From Burkholderia stabilis (lineage in GTDB: Bacteria > Pseudomonadota > Gammaproteobacteria > Burkholderiales > Burkholderiaceae), in the NCBI RefSeq assembly GCF_001742165.1, contig NZ_CP016443.1, positions 1,178,001 through 1,242,000 on the forward strand: DNA of 64,000 bases, in the 5' to 3' direction. This document shows, piece after piece, positions 10,716 to 23,564 of this stretch; the first letter of the stretch is position 1; each line of letters starts with the position of its first letter. The position numbers and the translations under genes were made by a program. The notes beneath the pieces were generated by a model. That model made no database searches, was not told the origin of the DNA, and saw only the letters and a program-made list of their open reading frames with translations.

Positions 10716-13700
10716 TCAACGGGAAACGCTTCCCGCGCCTATCGGCAACGTGCCCTGGGGCAATCCCGGTGGCGGGCCACTATCCGGCAAATTGAACATC
10801 GCCATCGAGGCCGGACACCGGAACGTCTTCAACACGTCGCTCGTCAGCGGATTCGCGACACTTCCGGAGCTCGTAATGTCGAGCACCGCTTCACGACTGT
10901 CGAAACTGAACGCGACTCGTGTGCGGCCCGGCGTGGCCGTTCCGACCACCCGACCTTTCTGAAGCAGTCTCATCAACGCCCAGGGGCCGTCGGATGAAAC
11001 TGTCGACGTGTCTGGCCGGATGCGCGGGCTGGCCGTGATCTCGGCATGGACGCCGCCGCGCGGCCCTGGCCACGTAACCGTGACGGGTGCGACCGGACCG
11101 TGCTGGTAAAGCGTCGCCTGCCCGTCGATGTCGAGCGAGAGGCTCATGATCGTCGGCGCGAGTTCGGGAATTCGGATGTCGGCCTTCCACGTCATCTGCC
11201 TGTGGCCAGGATCGTTGAAGAAAATGTCGCGAATCGCCTTCGCATGCTCGAACGGCTCGAGGCTCGGCCCTTGTACGGGCTCCGTTGCCCCCGGCAGGGT
11301 TCGATAGCGCCACGGCTTTGCGGACGTATCGACAAATGGCGCCAGCGTCTTCACGAAGAAATCGTCGATAACACCGCCCTGCGCGAACACACGCGTGAAG
11401 TCGTCAATACCGACATCGCGCTTGCTCTCGGGTGAGAACGGGTAGTTTCCTTCGATCGTCAGTCGACAGCTGTCGCCAACCACTGCCTGCATCTGGCGCG
11501 ACAACAGTTGACCGATCCCCAGATTGACCTCGCGCGACCCATCTGCGGCGAGCTTGAGCAATATCGCGCGGAACGGTGCAGGCATAGTGTCGGCAGCCAT
11601 CTTGAGTTTCGCGGCCGTATCGCTCGCCGGCGGCATGCTGTTGTTCGACAGTGCGTTGTCAGCAACGGTGAGCGCCGTGTAATAGTCGTTCAGCATGTTG
11701 GCGACGCCGTCCAGTCCCGTCTTGTCCGCCCGAGTGACGGTCGATTGCACCTCGAGCTGCGCATCCGCGTTTCCCGTCACGACCTCTCGCAACGCCGCGA
11801 AACGATTGTCGACGAGTTCCCGCTCGACACGCTCCGACGCCCGAATACCCAGCGCCTTGTCGGCTTTCTGGTTCAGCTGGTCGGCAGCCTTCTGCAGCAG
11901 CGAACCGTTCGACGCAGTCGATTGCTGCGTGAGCGTCGTCTCGCGTACTGCGGCACGGGCAAGACGTGCGAGCGGCGAATCGGGGGCCGCAAAGCTGCGC
12001 AGCACCTTCAGATTGAAGGCAAGACTCGTGCCGCTCACGGTCCGAATGTCGTTGAGAAACGCCTCCCACTGCTGCGCGTACTCCATCAGGTATTCGCGGC
12101 GAACGGCGTCGGTCAACGCATCGTCCGCGCCGGTGGCGTTACTCACAATCTCAGCCGTTTTTTTTGAGCCTCGCCCAAATACGAGCGCCCCATCACCCAC
12201 GCGTCGTCGTCGTGCGCGATCTGCACGAATTCCGGCAGCCGCTTGTCGAACAGATTCCGATAGCCGTCGAACGTGAAGAGCCCCGGCACGCCACGCGACA
12301 ACGGTGCGTCGCTCGCTCGCGTGAACACCGTGCCGGCCTGCGGGCCCACCGCGCGCAGCAACGTAAACTCATCGGGTGCTTCCTTGAGCATTGCCGCCTT
12401 CGCGCGCTGGTAAAGGCGGTCGGTGGCGTTGCTGCCATCAAGAAAGGTACGTGTCTGCTGTACCAGCGCGTCGTTGCGGATCAGCGGAGACTGCACGACA
12501 CGCTCCCCGGAGAAGAGCTGTTGCACGTGGTCGATCATCGACGCCCTTCCACCAAAAGCAGTGGCGCTGTCGGTCTTCGCCCAGTCGTCGAGCACCCATG
12601 CCTTGACGTCACCCGCATTGAACTTCGCCCTGTCGTACAGCATCAAGTACACGCGAAGCGCATCGTAGGCAGCCTTTGGATCCTCGCTGGCCATTGCACC
12701 GGACATGATTTCTTCCAGACGGTGCACGATCTGCGGCAACAGCAGGTTGTCTTCGAGCGCATCGTAGGTGTGACGACTTTCAGTGGCAATGTCCACGGGC
12801 GTGTAGAGACCGTAGCGCCACGCGCTGTCCGGATCGGACAGGTCGAGCCCCGGGAAAGTGGGCAGATAGCGCGCCTCTGTCAGCGTATCGGGCACGGCTT
12901 GCAATTCGGGCGTCTTGTACAACGCCGTGACGCGGGCGGTAAGCGCCTGCACCTTGCGGCCAATCGTGTCGAGATAGTCACTGTTGTTGCCGAAGCTCAC
13001 GCGCAAACCAATCGCCAGCCACACGAACAACAGCAGCACCAATGTGTGGCCGATCAGGCGCAAGAGTCGGTAGCGATATTCCCAACGCAGGTTGGGACTC
13101 ACGAGATGCGCTTCCGGGAACACGACACGCGTCAGGAGATCGTGCAGGAAGAACCCTTGATTCCCCTCGGCACGCGCCGGTGCACCAGGGGCGTGGTCCT
13201 GAGTCGACAGAAGACGTTGAACCACCGTATGACGTTCCGCCACGATCTCGCTGCCCCGCTGTCGGGCGCTCGTGAAGTACACGCCGCGCAACGTCGAATG
13301 GAGCTGGGTGTCGTCATAGCGAGAATCAAGGAATACCTGGTCGATCAGGTCGAGCAGCGGCCCGAGCAGCGCGGAAAACGCCTCCGGCATGGCGGCAAGC
13401 TTGCGCCGCTTGTCCAGATCGTACTCATCCTGCAGATGCGTATCGATCGAACCCGTCAACCGTTCCGCCAGTTGGGTGAGCTCGTGATGACAACGCGCAC
13501 GCAGCCCTTCCTTCGCAACCGTTTCCTTGCCGTATGGAAGCGTAAAGCCCCATGCCTGTGCTCGCCCCTCGGACGTGAGCGCCCCGAAATACTCGGCAAA
13601 ACCTGCGAGGCGATCCATCTTCGTGACCATCACGTAAACGGGGAAGCGAATGCCCAGCTCCTCTCTCAGCTCTGCCAGCCGGGCGCGCAATGCAGCAGCC

Positions 13701-14812
13701 TCGGCGACACGCGCCTGTTCATCCGCGCTTGCCAGCGTCGCGAGATCGACCGTCAGCAATGCGCCGTTGATCGGCGCGCGAGGCCGGTTCCGGCGCAATA
13801 TGCCGAGAAACCCGAGCCACTCCACTCGATCGATCTCCTGTGGACCGTCGCGCGTGTCGGAAGGATTCGGAACGACATCGACGCTCGATTTCGAGGCGGC
13901 GGCCTCTTCCGATTTTCCGAGGGCGTCCTGTTGCGTGTCATCGGCAGAACGTCCCGTGCTCGTCGGCGCGTTGGCGGCATCCTTGCCGGATGCATCGGCT
14001 ACCGGCTTATTCGGTTCAGCGACGCGTGCATCGCCGCCCCCAGCCTTCGCGGTGCGATGACGCGTGTAGTAGCCGGTCGTGTCGATCAGCACCGCATCGT
14101 TCGTCAGCCACCAGTCCACTGCGGCAGCATCGGCAGCAGGTTTCCCGGCAGCCCGTTGCATCTGCTCGGCAACGGGAAACGCCAGCCCACCGTTCATCAA
14201 TATGCTGGTCTTGCCGGACCCTTGCGAGCCGAGTGTGATGTACCAGGGCAACTCGTACAAATAGCGCTTGCCCTGGAACAGCTTGCCGATGCCGCGCGCA
14301 CCGGTACGCATCGATTTAAGGCGCGCGAGCGCGTTCGTCACACCTCCTTCGACTTTCCGAAGACGGGAAGCTGCGAGCGGATCCTCCTTCCTGCGATCCA
14401 GACGCAGCATCTTTTTCATGAACGCATCGTCTTCGCGCATTTTCTGCCACAGGCGGAACACGCCGATCAGGACGAAAACGACCGCCACCAGCGAGATCGC
14501 GGTGAGCCGGGCCGACGCCGGTTCGAATGGAGCCATGTGCCCCAGCAAAAGCAGCGGCCCCGCATACCAGATCAGCAAGCACAGCAATGCGGCAAACACG
14601 ATGCTGATCGACCATCCCACGAGCCAAAGCAGCACGCCGGCGAGCAACAACCCAATCAGCAGCACGCGCATGCCGGCCCCGGCGAGCGGCTTGAGCCCGC
14701 CGAATGCGAAAAACGGACCGACGAACCAGACCACCAGTGCGACGACAACCAGTGCGAGGAACGCGAGGAACTGGCGCGAGGCCAGAAACGACAGGAACTG
14801 GAACTTCTTCAT
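10716..14812 (-). CDS. tssM: T6SS membrane subunit TssM (IcmF), frame broken at an A8 run
   Basis: IcmF-type inner-membrane core of the TssJLM complex. The first frame (14812 down to 12143, 889 aa) has N-terminal membrane helices, the Walker A motif GSQGSGKT near residue 195 and a further helix near residue 600. The periplasmic C-terminal part continues in another frame to 10716. The switch lies at eight adenines on the coding strand (12158-12165): with nine, the product is a single 1365-aa TssM (EAQKK then TAEIVSNATG), a normal length. As read, the first frame ends nine codons after the run begins. Possible causes are a sequencing undercount, a real inactivating deletion, or -1 slippage on A AAA AAA. 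The second frame has no convincing start of its own. Flanked on both sides by tssL genes. Confidence 0.85.
12158..12165 (-). other. A8 homopolymer at the tssM frame break
   Basis: On the coding strand the codons are CAA AAA AAA CGG, ending nine bases later at TGA. A -1 slip on A AAA AAA, or one extra A, gives CAA AAA AAA ACG GCT and continues into the conserved C-terminal half. Confidence 0.8.
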
Positions 14813-16450: not shown

Positions 16451-18825
16451 TTAATAACGCGGAAAGGTGCTGAAGTCGACTTTCACTGGCGGCGGTAACG
16501 TCCTGAACTGCTCGGCAAGGTAGTTGCCGCGATCCGCCGCCGCTACCCTGGCACGCTCGATGGCAATCTGCGCGGCGGCGTCTTTCAGGCCGAGCGACCG
16601 AACGCGCCTGTCGTTGCCGACGAAGAACGTCCGCGCCCAACCGTAACCGCCGGGTGCATATTCATGGAAATAGGGCACGCGGAACCATGCGCGGCTGTCG
16701 TGAACGTAATCGTCCAGCAAACGAATCGCGGCGCTAGGCAGCTTTCGCACCGCGGCGTCAGACGTGTGTTCGAGCAGGAACGGCAGCATTTCCTGCGGCG
16801 GCGCGAGAACATAATCCAGGACTGGTTGATACGGGGCCACGGCACCAAACAGCTGCAGCACGCGATCACGCCCTCCCATCCAGACGGTCGTCGACCCTTG
16901 CCGACGGTGCGTGGCGACATCCTTCCGTTCAACCGTCAGGTAATAAGCGCTGACGTCCTGTTCCAAGGCAATGGCATCGCTGGCCCCCCAACCTTCAGCT
17001 TCACCTTGTCCGCCGGCGGGCGAGACCAGTACACCTGCCAGCGCGAACGACGATCGGGATACAGGTATGCCAGCAAGAGGCGGAACTCCTCCGCGGCTTC
17101 GAGAAGGTCGGTCTTGTCGTTGGTCGTTACGTCCGTCGTACCCTCGCCGGGCCGCGGAGGTTTCCCAGCCGCAGCCGCCATGATCTCGGCGTCTTTCTTC
17201 TTGATTTGCTCGCCGAGTTCAGCCGCCTTTTTCTTGAACGGATTCGCCAGTGCCGGAATCGCAGGCATGCTGAGCGCGGCGGCATCGAGGCCAGCCTTTT
17301 GCTTCTCGAGTTGGCTCTTCTCGTGCTTCAGCTTGTCAAGCTGGGAATTGGACGCTGCCTTGCTCGCGATTCGCGTTTCGAGTCCGTGGGGCGTGACCTC
17401 GTCTTCAGGCGCATGACGGAAAAAGGCCTGCGACGTGATGTAGGCCTGCGGATTTCCATAGTCCGCGCGCAAGGTACGCCATGCGAGCGACTGACCCATG
17501 CCGATACGAAGTGCGGTTTCGACGCTGTCGAGGGGCTTTTGATTGACGGTTGAGAGCCAGTCGTTGAAGGCGCGGGAAACGGATGACGAGATTTTGAAAT
17601 CATCGTCTACGATCTTCGGAAGCGGTGATTCCTTTGTCTGCACAGATAATGGCACGCCAGCCTTCAATGCCTCGATATACATGTTGTGCAAGGTGACCTG
17701 ACTAAGCTTGCTACCGTCGCCGTCTCGAGATTTGCCCTCTTCATTGAACGCATAACCACCGCCCACGTCCGAATGTACCCCCGGGTAGGCGACCTCAATC
17801 CTGCGCGGCTCGCTGACCGGATAGGCATGCTGCTCCCGAATGGAATCGAGCGGGAAACTCATGCGCTGTTCGTGAATCGAGAAGAAATGCACGCACTTCT
17901 TCACTGAAGCGGGAATGTTAAGGGCACCTTTTGCGGTCCATGCCCAGTGCCCGTCTAGATCCGCCATATCGATCGCCGCAGTGGCCGTATCCGGCAGACC
18001 AACCGATGCAACCGTGTCGAAAATCCCCAGGAAATTGACCTCGTACGGAATCGCGCCGGCGATCATACCGTCCGGTGCCCACGTGTTGATGAGACGGTTG
18101 ACGAATACGCGCGCGCCTGCCGCACCGCGCGAGAAGCCGAATACGTTCACCCATACCTTCTTGATCGAACGATTCAGTTGACCACCCGGTCCGCGATGCT
18201 TCTTCTGAAGCGCGGACAGTTCCCCGTGAAGACGCTCCAGCTTCGCCCGAGATTTGTATCCGTAGTACACCTGCGATGCGGTTGCGATAGAACCCGCCAT
18301 GGGGAGAGCCTTAGACACCTTTCCGACAATTTGCGTCAGCGTGCCGTTCGAGGCCATGACGTCATTGTCGATCGACGAACACAGAGCACGGGCCTCAGGA
18401 TCGTCCAGCAATCGACTCCCCGTCATCGCGATATGCAGCGCGTTCAGCAAGCGGGTGTATCCCCAAGCGACGCGCATACCGAAACCAAGGGCGAATGCCT
18501 TGCCTTCCGACGTGAAAGCCATTTCGCCAATTTCAAAAAATGGAGTACCGACACCCGGAACGTACTCGGAGAAAATCCCTGCTTCTTTTTTCCGCTGGCA
18601 AGCACGAAACATTCTCGCGACATTACTGTGTGTCGGCTTTTTCGTATATTTTGTATCCCATTCAAGATTATTATTCGTACCATCGAAGAACAGATTGACG
18701 TGAAGCGTCTTCGGACAGCCAGCGGGCTCCCCTGCCAAGGTACTTTTGCCCATTGCTCGGGCCGCTTCACCTTCTGCCAAACGCCCTTGTTCGTTGAACG
18801 GTTCGGGCCAACGGATTACGCTCAT
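16451..18825 (-). CDS. T6SS phospholipase effector, Tle1-like (DUF2235), frame broken at a G6 run
   Basis: The first frame (18825 to 16936, 629 aa) holds the Tle1/DUF2235 hydrolase fold: FFDGTNNN near residue 46, the nucleophile Ser232 in GFSRG, Asp270 in GIFDTVASVG and His351 in PGVHSDVGGGY. The rest continues in another frame to 16451 (WMGGRD, YVHDSRAWF, EYAPGGYGW), a region that resembles the C-terminal part of Tle1 proteins. The frames meet at six guanines on the coding strand (16984-16989); a seventh gives one 791-aa protein. The second frame has no ATG or ribosome-binding site. Tle1 enzymes attack phospholipids of rival cells. Two DUF3304 lipoprotein genes upstream fit as immunity, and vgrG and DUF4123 genes complete the module. 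A coiled-coil-like Lys/Glu/Gln stretch lies at about 495-530. Confidence 0.82.
16984..16989 (-). other. G6 homopolymer at the tle1 frame break
   Basis: On the coding strand GTT GGG GGG CCA leads to a TGA after 15 further codons. With seven G the reading becomes GTT GGG GGG GCC AGC GAT and continues into the 3' frame. Confidence 0.7.
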
Positions 18826-18837
18826 CGCACTTTCTCC

Positions 18838-19362
18838 TCACTTCTTGTTCAATTCCGCATCCAGCACGCCCTGCACGATGTACGGATCGTTATCGGCGGG
18901 TTTCTCCGCCATTTCCGGTTTGTCCTCGATCTCCACACGGATTCGATCGCCGGGCAGGAAATGCGCCACAAAACCGTAAGTCCGTCGACCATACGGCGGC
19001 ACGTCGGTGGTCGCAGTAAGCCATTGATCACCGCTGCGGTCTTCGTCATAGGGTTTCGTGTCCCGCCGCCACTTGATTACGAGCTTCATGCCTGGACGCC
19101 AGTGGGCAGGAATACCGATACAGCACGATCCACCACTTTCCGAGCGCTGTTTCCCAGCCTCTTTCGGCAACATATTTGAACCGCCTGCAGACAGTTCATG
19201 ACCCTCGCTCGTAATGAGAAATTGATCAATGTAATAATCGGTATAGTTATAGCCACTGACGCTGGACGGATTGATGTCATTTGAATCCGAGCAACCAATC
19301 ATCGTTAGCAACAGCGAACAGGTAAGTAAAGCAAGGAAATGCCTCAGAGCACTGATTTCCAT
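18838..19362 (-). CDS. DUF3304-type lipoprotein, putative Tle1 immunity protein (copy 1)
   Basis: 174-aa predicted lipoprotein: signal peptide with lipobox MIGC and acylated Cys24, then a globular domain with GYNYTDYYIDQF, CCIGIPAHWRPGMKLVIKWRRDTKP and PYIVQGVLDAELNKK. It is closely similar along its whole length to the protein at 19542-20069. Start at 19362 has AAAAGGAGA upstream. It ends 12 bp before the Tle1 gene. Lipoproteins beside Tle1 lipases in Burkholderia are periplasmic immunity proteins (the Tli1 arrangement); assigning that role here is inference from position and lipobox. It lacks the high GC of the neighbours. Confidence 0.8.
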   Translation of the reverse strand: MEISALRHFLALLTCSLLLTMIGCSDSNDINPSSVSGYNYTDYYIDQFLITSEGHELSAGGSNMLPKEAGKQRSESGGSCCIGIPAHWRPGMKLVIKWRRDTKPYDEDRSGDQWLTATTDVPPYGRRTYGFVAHFLPGDRIRVEIEDKPEMAEKPADNDPYIVQGVLDAELNKK

Positions 19363-19379
19363 CTCAAGAAAATCTCCTT

Positions 19380-19529
19380 TTATGTAGTCAGGATCAAGAT
19401 GACGCGTAACGTCTGTGGGCAGCGGTAGAACTCTCCTGCCAAGGTACTTTTGCCCGTTGTGCGAGCAGTTTCGCCCTCGCCCAAACGACCCCGTTCGTTG
19501 AATGGCTCGGGCCATCGAATGACGCTCAT
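19380..19529 (-). pseudogene. Relic of a second tle1 gene (first 49 codons)
   Basis: Too short to stand out as a gene. The minus strand from the ATG at 19529 reads MSVIRWPEPFNERGRLGEGE and on to GKSTLAGE, matching the start of the Tle1 effector at 18825 (MSVIRWPEPFNEQGRLAEGE, GKSTLAGE). Similarity continues through CPxTLxV and then decays to a TAA at 19380. Like the full effector, it begins 12-13 bp after a DUF3304 gene. So an immunity-plus-effector unit was duplicated and this effector copy was later deleted, leaving its 5' end and the second immunity gene. The first DUF3304 gene now starts 17 bp after the relic stop. Confidence 0.85.
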
Positions 19530-19541
19530 CACACCCTCTCC

Positions 19542-20069
19542 TCACTTCTTGTTCAATTCCGAGTCCAGCACGCCCTGCACGATATAGGGATCGTCATCAT
19601 CGATTTTCGGGAGAATTCCTTTCTCATCCCTGATCTGGATACGAATCCGGTCGCCTGACAGGAAATGCACCACGAAGCCCGCGGTGCGTGGCCCGTACGG
19701 CGGCACGTCTGTGGTCGCAGTAAGCCATTGGTCACCGCTACGGTCATCGTCGTAGGGTTTCGTGTCTCGTCGCCACTTGATCACGAGTTTCGTGTCTGGA
19801 CGCCAGTGGGACGGAATGCTGATGCAGCACACGAATCCCCCTCCGCCCGAGCGCGCTTGACCGTCCTTTTTAGGAAAGATATTCGGCCCGCCTGCTGAGA
19901 GTTCCTGGCCTTCATTCCCGACGCGGAATCCCGCGATGTAGTAGTCGGTGTAGTTATAGCCACTCACATCCGATGGGTTACTCTCATTTGCATCCGAGCA
20001 CCCAAGGATCGTCGACAGGAAACCAGCAGCAAGAAGACCGGCAAAGCGCTTCGAAACAACTACGATCAT
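19542..20069 (-). CDS. DUF3304-type lipoprotein, putative Tle1 immunity protein (copy 2)
   Basis: 175-aa predicted lipoprotein with lipobox ILGC (Cys24) and the same domain as its neighbour: GYNYTDYYIAGF, CCISIPSHWRPDTKLVIKWRRDTKP, TATTDVPPYGPRTAGF and PYIVQGVLDSELNKK. Its start overlaps the DUF4123 stop (ATGA), showing translational coupling to the effector adaptor, and its stop lies 13 bp before the tle1 relic. The pair differ mostly in the middle (GQARSGGGG against GKQRSESGG), so they may protect against different Tle1 variants. Confidence 0.8.
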   Translation of the reverse strand: MIVVVSKRFAGLLAAGFLSTILGCSDANESNPSDVSGYNYTDYYIAGFRVGNEGQELSAGGPNIFPKKDGQARSGGGGFVCCISIPSHWRPDTKLVIKWRRDTKPYDDDRSGDQWLTATTDVPPYGPRTAGFVVHFLSGDRIRIQIRDEKGILPKIDDDDPYIVQGVLDSELNKK

Positions 20070-20950
20070 TTTTCGGCATCCTGTTCATCGATCGACTTCG
20101 CACGCTTCTCGAAATCACGCATCAAATCCCGCCATACATACGACGGAACCAACTCAAACTCTTGTAGCAACGATGCTTCGCCGGCAACAGCCGACCGGAT
20201 GGCCGATCGAATCTCGCCCTGTCGGTCGAACGCTTCGCCATACTGATACGAGGCCACACAGAACGCGTGAAGATCTGCCCTGAGCGCCAACCCCCATTGA
20301 ATCGCACGACCATATCGGTGAAGCAAATCCCGGTACCTGATGGCATATGGCTGATTCGCGTCGATCAGGCCAAGGTCGCTCAACTCGCTCATGAGCGCAT
20401 GCGGCTCATCATGCTTTTCCAACGTATCGAGCTGCCGCTGACTGAGTGACAGCGAAAACTGCCTCGCATCCTCGATGCGCAAACGCTCGTCGATAGCGAT
20501 GTACCGCCACTCCGAGCTTCCACCGCGATACATCCATGTCGCTATCGGGCGTGTGAGTTCAACGATCACCGCTTGGCCGGCGACGCCCACTATCGACGGA
20601 AGCGAACGTGGATCGAACCAGCGAAGCAGAACCTGCATGCCTTCACCGATGTCCGCAAAGAGAAAGCGTTGAATATGAATCTTGAGTTCATCGATACCGA
20701 GCGCGCTGCGCATCACTGTGAAGCATGGCCGATACCGATCCATCTGATCGATATGACGAACCCATTCGCTATCCGCGTCGTCGATCTCGAAAAGAATCGG
20801 AGCCGCGTTTCCGGCCTCCTCCTCGGGCAATCCTTCAAATAACGATCGCACCTCCGGCGAGAACTCGAGCACCCATATAGCAAGCGCCTCCGGGTACTGC
20901 GCGCCATCGACCAGGCCATAGAGTTTTCCGTTGCCGTCTACTGTTTTCAT
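20066..20950 (-). CDS. DUF4123 domain-containing protein, T6SS effector chaperone/adaptor
   Basis: 294-aa soluble protein. The DUF4123 domain occupies about residues 1-135 (LYGLVDGAQYPEA, LFADIGEGMQVLLRWFDPRSLPSIV); DUF4123 proteins (Tap/TEC) hold a toxin and dock it on its cognate VgrG. It starts 10 bp after vgrG and its stop overlaps the immunity gene, which places it between spike and payload exactly as expected. The start at 20950 was preferred over an in-frame start at 20986 inside vgrG because the domain begins there. The C-terminal half is helical and charged. Confidence 0.85.
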   Translation of the reverse strand: MKTVDGNGKLYGLVDGAQYPEALAIWVLEFSPEVRSLFEGLPEEEAGNAAPILFEIDDADSEWVRHIDQMDRYRPCFTVMRSALGIDELKIHIQRFLFADIGEGMQVLLRWFDPRSLPSIVGVAGQAVIVELTRPIATWMYRGGSSEWRYIAIDERLRIEDARQFSLSLSQRQLDTLEKHDEPHALMSELSDLGLIDANQPYAIRYRDLLHRYGRAIQWGLALRADLHAFCVASYQYGEAFDRQGEIRSAIRSAVAGEASLLQEFELVPSYVWRDLMRDFEKRAKSIDEQDAEK

Positions 20951-20960
20951 GAAGCCAACC

Positions 20961-23492
20961 TCAAAGCCGCGGCACAACCGATGCACCGCTCTTCGCGGCT
21001 TTCAGCAGACACTCGATGCACACCTTGGGAACGTGAAGCTCGACGGAAACTTCGTCAGGTTTAGGAAAATAATGGGTGGCTGCATGTGCCAGCCAGACAC
21101 CGCTGGTGCCACTTTTGATGCTGCCCTGCTCAAGCTCGATATAGCTCCCGCCACCGTTCAGAACCAGCTTCTTTTTCGCCTTGATATGGATCGTGTCGCT
21201 GGTGACGTTGACCTCGAGGAGGGCCAGCAGATTGATCGCCTTCTGCAGTGCGTGAATGTCGATATCGCCATCCGCCGCGACGGATTTCATGCCTCCATGC
21301 GCTGCAAAATGACGCACCGTGTCCTGAGCGCTGACGAGGACGCTACCGCTCGCCGATGCCGCGATATGCGCCCCGCTCGTCAGCGCAACGTGCTGACCGC
21401 TCGCGATATGCGTTGTCGCGGGAGTCGTAGTCTGGATACCGGCGGCGCCAGCAATGACGACGTGCGGCGCACCCAGCTCGTAAAAACCGTCGTCGGCGCG
21501 GCTTTGCGGCCCGCGTATGGCGGCGTTCTGTCTGGCCAGCATCGCGGCGACTTCTTCCTGATGGGCGTTCGCGTCCTGCGCCGTGGCCTGTTGCGCCAGT
21601 TGAGCAATCGTCGACTGCCAACGCGCGGCTTCTTCCAACCGGGCAGTCGTTTCATCCATGTCGGTCAAATGCGCCTGCGCATTGGGACGTGCTTCCGTCG
21701 TAAGCAGCATGCCCTGCCCCGCACGAAACACGCCGTGGCCGTCCGTCCGCAACTCCGCCCCACGACCACGCTCATCCTGCCGCCCGGCATTCCCCGCAAT
21801 ACGCGTGATGTACCCCAGATTCAACTGCGAGCAACCTTCATCGCTCGACAGATGCGCCTGGATCTTTCCGTTCGTATCATCAAAAGCCAGCGTATTCGCC
21901 CGCCGGGCACCGACCTCCTTGCTTCGATAACCGGCGAGTGTCTGGTTCTCCGGCAGCGCGAACGGCGGCATGTTGAATGCATTCACCGCGCTGCCCACGA
22001 CGATCGGCAAATCCGGATCACCATTGACGAAAGCGACCTCGACCTCATGCCCCCGGCGCGGAAGAAAAACACCCCCGAACTGATCGCCGTGCCACGCACC
22101 GGCAACGCGCACCCAACAGCTGGAACGCTCGTCGTTCTTGCCCAACCGGTCCCATAGGAACTGCAGCTTCACCCGGCCGTATGCGTCGGTCCAGATTTCC
22201 TGCCCCTCGGGGCACGTCACGACGGCATACTCGACGCCGGTCATGCGCGGCTTCGCAATCGTGCGCGTTAGCCGAAACGGTTCATGGGTCGGTTGCACCG
22301 TGAAATCCGCTTCGCAGCGATACTGCTGGCCGGCCCCTGACGCTTCGCCGATCTCCTCGATCGCAAGCCTGCAGGCAATCACCGCATATTCGCGATTCGC
22401 CGCGATCTGCGGGTAGTGCGACAGCACGAATGTCTGCCCGGTGACCATGCCACGCAAGTTGCCCTTGCCGTGGGCTCTCAATCCCTGGCACCGCCAGGCC
22501 TGCATCTGCACCAGCGTCAGATATTCCGCCTCCGTGCGCGGTTCGTTGTGAGCGCCGGAGAGTCCGGCCGCACCTGCTTGCGGCTGTGCGTAATCTCCCC
22601 ACGAATAGCGCTCCTGATGAGCGAGCCCCATTTCGCGAGGGTCTTCGCGCGTCACGGTCAAATTCGCCCGCGGCAACGTATAGTCGTAGTCGACAGCCGT
22701 CACCGCGCCCGTGGTCAGCGCATGGGACACCGAAAAATCGTGAATGTGTTCCTCGTCGATCCGTCGACTGGTCGGCGGTTCGTAGCGAAGCTCGGCATAG
22801 GCATCGCCGAGCGGTTTGAGCGCCCCCATCGAATCGCAAAGCACGAGTCGATGCTTGCCTTCGTCATGTTCGAAGAAGTAGTAGATGCCCCACTCTTCCC
22901 ACAAACGCTGCAGGAATGTCCAATCGCTTTCGAAGTGCTGGCGCTGAATGTCCCGCTTGGGCCATATCTTGTTCGGCCGGGGAGTCGTCAGTCGCTTGTC
23001 GATCGGGAACGGATAAACCGACAGCACGGCATCCGTGATCTCGACCACGGACATATCCTGGAAAATGCGACAGTCGCAATTCTTGGTCGCATGCCAGAGC
23101 CACGGTCGCAGCGTAAGGGCATAGACGATCGAGCGACCGTCCTCACGGACGATCGTCGCATGGCTGACAACACCGGTGATTTCGCGCGAGCCGGCGCCGA
23201 TATTGGCCATTCCGGCAGCGCCGGCGAGACCTGGAATGAAATGTCCCCTGCCTTCGAGCTGAATCGATACGGTCACTTCGGTGCCGATCAGCGCGTCGAG
23301 ATCGACATTCGCCGCGATGCTCTGCGAAAACCCGAGTGCGTCCGGCGTCTTCAGCTCCAGGACGTACTCGAACAACTCGCCAATCGTCTCGCCGCCAGCG
23401 AGCTTCACCGGCGTCAGGATCGACTGACCACCGTACATCGGCAAGGCCGCGCCGGAAACCGACAGCGTCCGTGGTGCGTCAAACAAAGCCAT
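20961..23492 (-). CDS. vgrG: T6SS spike protein VgrG (TssI)
   Basis: 843-aa VgrG. Residues 1-470 contain the gp27/gp5-like core (FEYVLELKTPDALG, FLQRLWEEWGIYYFFEHDEGKHRLVL, GRVKLQFLWDR, SCWVRVAGAWHG and the OB-fold region GGVFLPRRGHEVEVAFVNGDPDLPIVVGS). Residues about 600-790 form a DUF2345 extension with beta-helix repeats, and the C-terminus is a short Cys-containing tail (KVCIECLLKAAKSG). The start at 23492 follows AAAGGGGCATCGGA. It trimerises under the PAAR tip. No separate enzymatic domain is visible, so the payload is probably the adaptor-loaded Tle1 encoded downstream. Confidence 0.93.
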   Translation of the reverse strand: MALFDAPRTLSVSGAALPMYGGQSILTPVKLAGGETIGELFEYVLELKTPDALGFSQSIAANVDLDALIGTEVTVSIQLEGRGHFIPGLAGAAGMANIGAGSREITGVVSHATIVREDGRSIVYALTLRPWLWHATKNCDCRIFQDMSVVEITDAVLSVYPFPIDKRLTTPRPNKIWPKRDIQRQHFESDWTFLQRLWEEWGIYYFFEHDEGKHRLVLCDSMGALKPLGDAYAELRYEPPTSRRIDEEHIHDFSVSHALTTGAVTAVDYDYTLPRANLTVTREDPREMGLAHQERYSWGDYAQPQAGAAGLSGAHNEPRTEAEYLTLVQMQAWRCQGLRAHGKGNLRGMVTGQTFVLSHYPQIAANREYAVIACRLAIEEIGEASGAGQQYRCEADFTVQPTHEPFRLTRTIAKPRMTGVEYAVVTCPEGQEIWTDAYGRVKLQFLWDRLGKNDERSSCWVRVAGAWHGDQFGGVFLPRRGHEVEVAFVNGDPDLPIVVGSAVNAFNMPPFALPENQTLAGYRSKEVGARRANTLAFDDTNGKIQAHLSSDEGCSQLNLGYITRIAGNAGRQDERGRGAELRTDGHGVFRAGQGMLLTTEARPNAQAHLTDMDETTARLEEAARWQSTIAQLAQQATAQDANAHQEEVAAMLARQNAAIRGPQSRADDGFYELGAPHVVIAGAAGIQTTTPATTHIASGQHVALTSGAHIAASASGSVLVSAQDTVRHFAAHGGMKSVAADGDIDIHALQKAINLLALLEVNVTSDTIHIKAKKKLVLNGGGSYIELEQGSIKSGTSGVWLAHAATHYFPKPDEVSVELHVPKVCIECLLKAAKSGASVVPRL

Positions 23493-23564
23493 TCCGATGC
23501 CCCTTTGAATCGATCGAGTCACTGATCATCCACAATACGTTCAACCTATAACGCCTACCCCGTC

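Follow-up and report, generated by a model that had tools for sequence, protein, structure and literature searches.

The head of the effector gene tle1 between two immunity genes of Burkholderia stabilis, probably the seam of a tandem immunity-gene duplication

The Tle1-Tli1 locus and its genes

The window analysed here is a stretch of 64,000 nucleotides from the Burkholderia stabilis contig NZ_CP016443.1 (assembly GCF_001742165.1; positions 1,178,001 to 1,242,000), and all coordinates are counted from its first letter. On the minus strand of the window, the genes follow each other in the order vgrG, DUF4123 adaptor gene, tliB, a short stub, tliA, tle1 and a Tle1 C-terminal piece, and then come the genes for PAAR, DotU/OmpA and IcmF proteins (Table 1). 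Profile searches recovered the Tle1 catalytic domain PF09994 with 108.7 bits (cut-off 27) and the DUF3304 domain in both tli genes with 75.3 and 72.6 bits (cut-off 22); VgrG domains, DUF4123, PAAR, DotU and IcmF, which make up the T6SS context of a Tle1-Tli1 locus, were found by the same means. Judged by its domains and neighbours, the locus is of the Tle1-Tli1 type VI effector-immunity type, with phospholipase activity of the effector and its neutralisation by the immunity proteins as predicted functions. Relatives of the locus are present in Burkholderia pseudomultivorans, B. ambifaria and B. catarinensis, with Tle1 identities of 81-84%, which point to a Burkholderia host, probably a member of the cepacia complex. 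Further downstream, the IcmF/TssM frame at 12143-14812 reaches only position 247 of 308 in the second IcmF-related profile and may be shorter than usual.

Table 1. Features of the tle1 locus of B. stabilis in window coordinates
Feature	Position	Strand	Remarks
vgrG	20961..23522	-	VgrG domains, profile search
DUF4123 adaptor gene	20066..20986	-	profile match; its stop and the start of tliB share an ATGA
tliB, second DUF3304 immunity gene, 175 aa	19542..20069	-	profile match
Stub ORF, 49 codons and TAA stop: tle1 5' head and short tail	19380..19529	-	
Part of the stub homologous to tle1 codons 1-43	19400..19529	-	99/130 identical
37-nt tail between tle1 homology and tliA start	19363..19399	-	
tliA, DUF3304 immunity gene adjoining tle1, 174 aa	18838..19362	-	profile match
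tle1 main frame, 629 codons, PF09994 catalytic domain	16936..18825	-	
Tle1 C-terminal piece, another frame, ORF listed from TTG	16451..16966	-	below Pfam cut-off
Downstream repeat copy: tliA body and tle1 head	18696..19305	-	
Upstream repeat copy: tliB body and stub	19400..20012	-	

The tle1 gene of the window does not form one complete frame, since its main frame is followed by the C-terminal piece in another frame; a single frame of 790-821 aa is present in all nine of the close relatives from clade A (9/9). The split near the 3' end of the gene reflects either a broken effector whose two immunity genes have been kept or an assembly error. Furthermore, the head of this tle1 gene is at most 79% identical to that of any other tle1 (76% to that of the genome G056), while three segments of its body are 87-92% identical to G056; on these identities, the head is of a different allele type from the body to which it is attached.

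A comparison of tliA with tliB yielded a dN of 0.23, a dS of 1.02 and a dN/dS ratio of 0.23, and the ratios of all pairs involving one of these two genes lie between 0.15 and 0.32. Hence, both appear to be maintained genes. Their similarity is unevenly distributed, with 64.5% for the 5' halves and 79.5% for the 3' halves. The closest relative of tliA is the tli gene that follows the second stub of G056 (G056_t3; 93.3%), and tliB clusters with G056_t1, G024_t1 and the G029 copies; genes of the tliA- and tliB-types form separate groups across genomes and do not pair within a genome. A Shine-Dalgarno-like motif of its own (AAAGGAG) is present in front of tliA.

The stub is part of a repeat that includes the immunity gene

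The stub is an intact ORF of 49 codons. The initial annotation had taken it for a copy of the start of Tle1 that stands to a DUF3304 gene as the full effector does, and both of these points are borne out. The first 130 nucleotides of the stub align without gaps to the 5' end of tle1, located 704 bp away, with 99 identical positions, whereas 20,000 shuffled versions of the stub reached 34 identities on average and 57 at most, so that the alignment lies well beyond chance. The linker scores 115 against the tle1 head (top of 500 shuffles: 32), and in a translated search of the bacterium's own genome (8.5 Mb in three contigs) stub codons 1-48 matched Tle1 residues 1-48 with 71% identity (E 1.9e-14). 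Mismatches between the two heads fall on codon positions 1, 2 and 3 in numbers of 7, 6 and 18, respectively, as expected if both sequences had been coding for much of their history.

An alignment of the two regions reveals a repeat that is larger than had been noted and that runs through both adjacent immunity genes. It consists of three repeat families, D1, D2 and D3, with offsets of 704, 704 and 707 bp and identities of 79%, 82% and 70%. Because these families span the stub as well as the DUF3304 gene, stub and immunity gene are repeated as one unit. At its right edge, homology to the tle1 head ceases at about codon 43-44 of tle1, and no tle1 sequence from beyond about codon 44 was detected by shuffle-tested alignment in the linker between stub and tliA.

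No donor of the 37-nt tail behind this edge was found among the sequences compared. The alignment scores of the tail against tle1 and the downstream region (reached by 91 of 200 shuffles), the DUF4123 gene (181/200), vgrG (31/200), tliB (102/200) and the plus strand of the window (184/200) are no better than chance, and a comparison with the complete minus strand returned the self-match alone, the other minus-strand sites receiving no separate score. A DNA search of 65 genomes of the genus with the tail found, besides short matches at chance level, only the other type I seams described below. When the type I seams were compared with the 3' end of the DUF4123 gene by an anchored alignment, 126 of 1000 shuffles reached the score of the window's seam, and 52 to 445 of 1000 those of the others. 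On visual inspection at the protein level, one frame of the tail resembled the C-terminus of DUF4123, a likeness that was dropped because the nucleotide test lent it no support. With no donor found for the tail of the window's own seam, displacement of the effector or a later effector loss therefore retain a place among the explanations weighed below.

Type I stubs are shared with relatives

Six stubs in four genomes have, as judged by eye, a similar edge and tail; these type I stubs comprise the one in the window, two in G056, two in G024 and one in G029. Outside the window, a DNA search recovered relatives of the tail behind all of these stubs except one in G024, for which the tail was recognised by eye. 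The window stub is most closely related to the second G056 stub (95.3%). In a tree of the 129-nt head, the six type I stubs are separated from all ten tle1 heads by a branch with a support of 0.887, which marks the seam as old and inherited; on this sequence evidence, it would either predate these lineages or have been passed between them. A search of public proteins with the stub returned four proteins of 46-61 aa, one of them labelled as a hypothetical protein of B. multivorans. Not all such frames have stayed intact: at least three type I or type II stubs (the first of G056, the first of G024 and that of G006C1) are frameshifted or stopped early, and the second stub of G028 has lost its start codon.

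Spacers between tandem tli genes in the family

The 65 genomes of the genus were searched with Tle1 and DUF3304, and 398 genomes of the family (genus included) were searched with a clade B stub and the window stub; selected loci were then fetched. The scored set comprises 48 spacers, among them that of the window, each lying between tandem DUF3304 genes with a tle1 gene downstream. In 33 of them, the alignment to the local tle1 head outscores every one of 200 shuffles (500 in the genus subset); as spacers within one array are related, this number is no tally of independent events. One of the 33 contains a complete tle1 (G200) and two contain long truncated copies (G364 and contig C116 of G041); outside these three, the head alignments end between about codons 12 and 57, at a point that differs by lineage, with codon numbers possibly off by several codons or more since the tle1 start codons used in the survey are approximate. 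No tle1 head was detected by the shuffle test in the other 15 spacers. These are three in the second array of G024, two each in G036, G054 and G292, one each in G033 C2, G061 C133, G234 and G083, one of the two in G049 (1/200 shuffles) and one in G200 (6/200 shuffles). Spacers of G029, G041 C10, G002 C3 and G003 C17 were left unscored for lack of a downstream tle gene and that of G234a for its length of less than 20 nt; loci L075-L081 were left out because the profile gave no tli there, though weak DUF3304 matches are listed.

What follows the captured head varies among the lineages. In G003, G018 and G006C1, a head of about 16 codons continues into the 3' tail of the DUF4123 gene (0, 1 and 0 of 1000 shuffles, respectively), and in spacers 1 and 3 of G028 the head runs into a longer DUF4123 tail (0/1000 shuffles each; the anchor of this test lay 6 nt short of the start adopted in later steps); spacer 2 of G028 yielded no match to this tail, its score being reached by 87 of 1000 shuffles. 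The same type of junction to the upstream flank, not supported for the window's tail, was recognised by alignment or by eye in three further genomes. In G364 (L086), a tle1 frame of 315 codons (within a 317 aa frame) joins the DUF4123 C-terminus in frame, and the same C-terminus also precedes the first tli gene (both by eye). In G083 (L098), three tle1 codons are followed by about 100 of the last VgrG codons, which results in an ORF of 103 codons between the immunity genes (by eye). In G061, two copies of the unit, 87.7% identical over 745 columns, begin about 10 nt ahead of the tli start. Both sites of G337 carry similar DUF4123-side sequence (by eye), and in G278, G234, G200, G292, G016 and G049 the head is in frame with the immunity gene itself.

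Longer portions of the effector gene are present in further loci. The longest version, in G041 C116 (L056), has the layout tli-tle1-tli-tle1 with a first tle1 of about 400 codons and is cut by a contig end (frames of 410 aa, and of 412 aa at the cut); here, as in G364, the long truncated tle1 stands upstream of further tle1 copies in a tandem array. In G200 (L087), two complete tle1 genes, with frames of 759 and 751 aa, share one locus with five DUF3304 genes, apparently a duplication of the full effector-immunity module. The variety of seams is the outcome to be expected if the edges of duplications fall variously around tli, and the duplication of a full-length effector, found in one of the genomes examined (G200), would be one extreme of this range. 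As minor observations, immunity genes 2 and 3 of G049 (L049) appear to begin at a captured tle1 start, so that a short run of effector codons precedes the signal peptide, and paired DUF3304 domains are fused in single frames of 430 aa, repeated twice, in G292 (L099).

Most stub frames end at or near the start of the next immunity gene

Among 22 measured stop-terminated stubs, one of which (the upstream stub of G012) sits between vgrG and the first tli gene, 11 stop exactly 4 nt inside the start of the next tli; seven of the other 11 end within -12 to +20 nt of the tli start, two within 21 to 30 nt, and two are broken earlier. The second G028 stub is not among the 22, and that of G364 was missed by the pattern but has, by eye, a GTGA overlap. 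At six further loci, the stub frame continues in frame into tli. In a simulation of random joins of the same parents, with every head length of 9 to 180 nt combined with every left edge between 45 nt inside the first tli start and 60 nt ahead of it, the join was coupled or fused with a mean probability of 0.51. In each of the 14 simulated classes, the best-preserved member shows a coupled or fused outcome, for which the product of the random-join probabilities is 7.9e-5 (post hoc), or 8.0e-3 if two failures are assumed. The coupling test did not cover G041 C116, and the true left edge of G083 lies outside the simulated range. Since the limits were set after the data had been seen, one member per class was hand-picked and some classes may share ancestry, we regard this result as a lead. 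Given stub frames that stop on or close to the start of the next tli, or are in frame with it, more often than random joining would produce, it suggests that the seam may keep the new antidote gene translated. The window stub itself stops 17 nt before tliA without an overlap; given this gap and the ribosome-binding motif that tliA has of its own, coupling may not matter there, and in this genome the stub may by now be no more than a scar.

Origin of the stub

We consider it probable that the stub marks the seam where an immunity gene was duplicated in tandem, as part of a unit composed of upstream flank, tli and effector head, and that it is not the remains of a full second Tle1. The repeat, its right edge and the layout recurring in relatives all speak for this reading, and the head is joined to the tail of an upstream gene in several relatives, though not in the window. 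The initial annotation had instead proposed that immunity gene and effector were duplicated together, and that one effector was then lost while its antidote was retained. A duplication that comprises the immunity gene together with the 5' end of tle1 is well supported, and the low dN/dS ratios of the tli genes agree with retention; a duplication of the whole effector is not supported. Duplication of the complete tli-tle1 pair followed by deletion of most of one tle1 could draw on the longer truncated copies in G364 and G041 and on G200, the one genome among those examined that has two complete tle1 genes in one locus and which makes a loss after full duplication possible in principle. Yet no tle1 residue from beyond about codon 44 was found in the window's linker, the long copy of G364 is, by eye, a direct seam to the DUF4123 tail and not a decaying full gene, and seams elsewhere require no full copy: where the head is joined directly to an upstream tail, a single duplication suffices and the alternative calls for two events. 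We thus hold a lost second effector to be quite unlikely. An unlikely origin, too, is displacement, in which an incoming tliA-tle1 module would have recombined into the head of a resident tle1 and left the old immunity gene and the old head behind. This would account for the missing local source of the 37-nt tail, for the mixed allele of the window's tle1 and for the separate grouping of tliA- and tliB-type genes; such lack of pairing within genomes is the pattern by which displacement arrays are recognised, yet an old duplication would be expected to leave it as well. Against displacement, the repeated units of G056 and G024 and the block repeat of G028 require amplification within the locus, and seams in which the head meets the tail of the resident upstream gene agree with a local duplication; an incoming module flanked by identical sequence could, however, mimic them.

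The stub might also encode a conserved micro-protein, for instance one that acts as a decoy for the N-terminal part of Tle1. The five clade B stubs measured have frames that stay open over 42 to 60 codons, which would agree with this, as would the small proteins returned by the protein search and the older stub pairs, whose dN/dS ratios range from 0.24 (G061 versus G041) to 0.68 but may include time before the duplication. The ratios of the two youngest stub pairs (0.64 and 0.73), on which this reading was lowered, and stub lengths and C-termini that vary by lineage render it very improbable. Such weak constraint on the amino acid sequence in the youngest pairs makes a role of the frame likelier than a role of the peptide.

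Under the seam reading, the duplicated unit would begin close to the start of tli, or ahead of it, and end within the 5' part of tle1, so that every extra tli would carry a truncated effector head behind it and the sole full tle1 would stay at the end of the array. As the head retains the ribosome-binding site and start codon of tle1, a frame that ends on or close to the start of the next tli, or continues into it in frame, would couple the new copy to translation, and seams that break this coupling would be lost; later crossing-over between copies would alter the number of tli units and leave the effector untouched. A more general proposal, which we put forward as tentative, is that the effector start in Tle1 loci serves as an expansion joint: units of tli and effector head might multiply, with each copy translated from the captured start or relayed through it by stop/start overlap or fusion, and recombination might thereby raise or lower the dosage and diversity of immunity, with the effector kept at exactly one copy.

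Comparison with known immunity-gene arrays

The gene order of the window is identical to that of the P. aeruginosa PAO1 locus vgrG4a-tla1-tli1b-tli1a-tle1, which encodes a VgrG, a DUF4123 adaptor, two DUF3304 proteins and Tle1 (PMC13133936). As far as the accessible portion of that report goes, its authors suggest that the second DUF3304 of Tli1b, which is shorter, may have been involved in a duplication, found by two-hybrid analysis that Tle1 bound Tli1a and not Tli1b, and proposed tli1b to be a pseudogene; a tle1-head spacer is not mentioned in this portion (PMC13133936). In the window, by contrast, such a spacer is present and both tli genes are under purifying selection. B. cenocepacia Tle1 effectors and their putative immunity genes are listed, in the part of the article available, in PMC6612558.

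According to the accessible text of Kirchberger et al. 2017 (PMC5361080), orphan immunity arrays of V. cholerae arose by effector displacement, and it was argued there and in PMC8189183 that the copies do not group within a genome and hence did not arise by duplication; truncated effectors have been reported in one V. cholerae array (in the available part of PMC8189183). On the evidence of these excerpts, the V. cholerae arrays resemble the window in their tandem immunity genes beside one effector. Unlike them, several lineages studied here show seams of local duplication, while their tli copies still group by position across genomes. In the tandem esaG and tipC genes of type VII systems, copy number shifts by recombination between tandem immunity paralogues, with no effector-head spacer mentioned in the portion of the paper at hand (PMC9484751), and a DUF2235 MIX effector of Vibrio anguillarum has a duplicated immunity gene whose spacer is not described in the available excerpt (PMC4549250). 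In the literature searched for this layout, much of it accessible in part, we found no description of an effector head as the spacer between immunity genes.

The seams would provide a readable record of a second route to spare antidote genes, namely local duplication ending inside the effector, as an alternative to the displacement via gene transfer by which the spare antidotes of V. cholerae are explained in the consulted part of PMC5361080. They further suggest a survival rule for such duplications, according to which the new antidote must remain in the translation chain; simple reporters and sequence counts from other effector families could put this rule to the test. Finally, small hypothetical proteins annotated between immunity genes may be explained by such seams.
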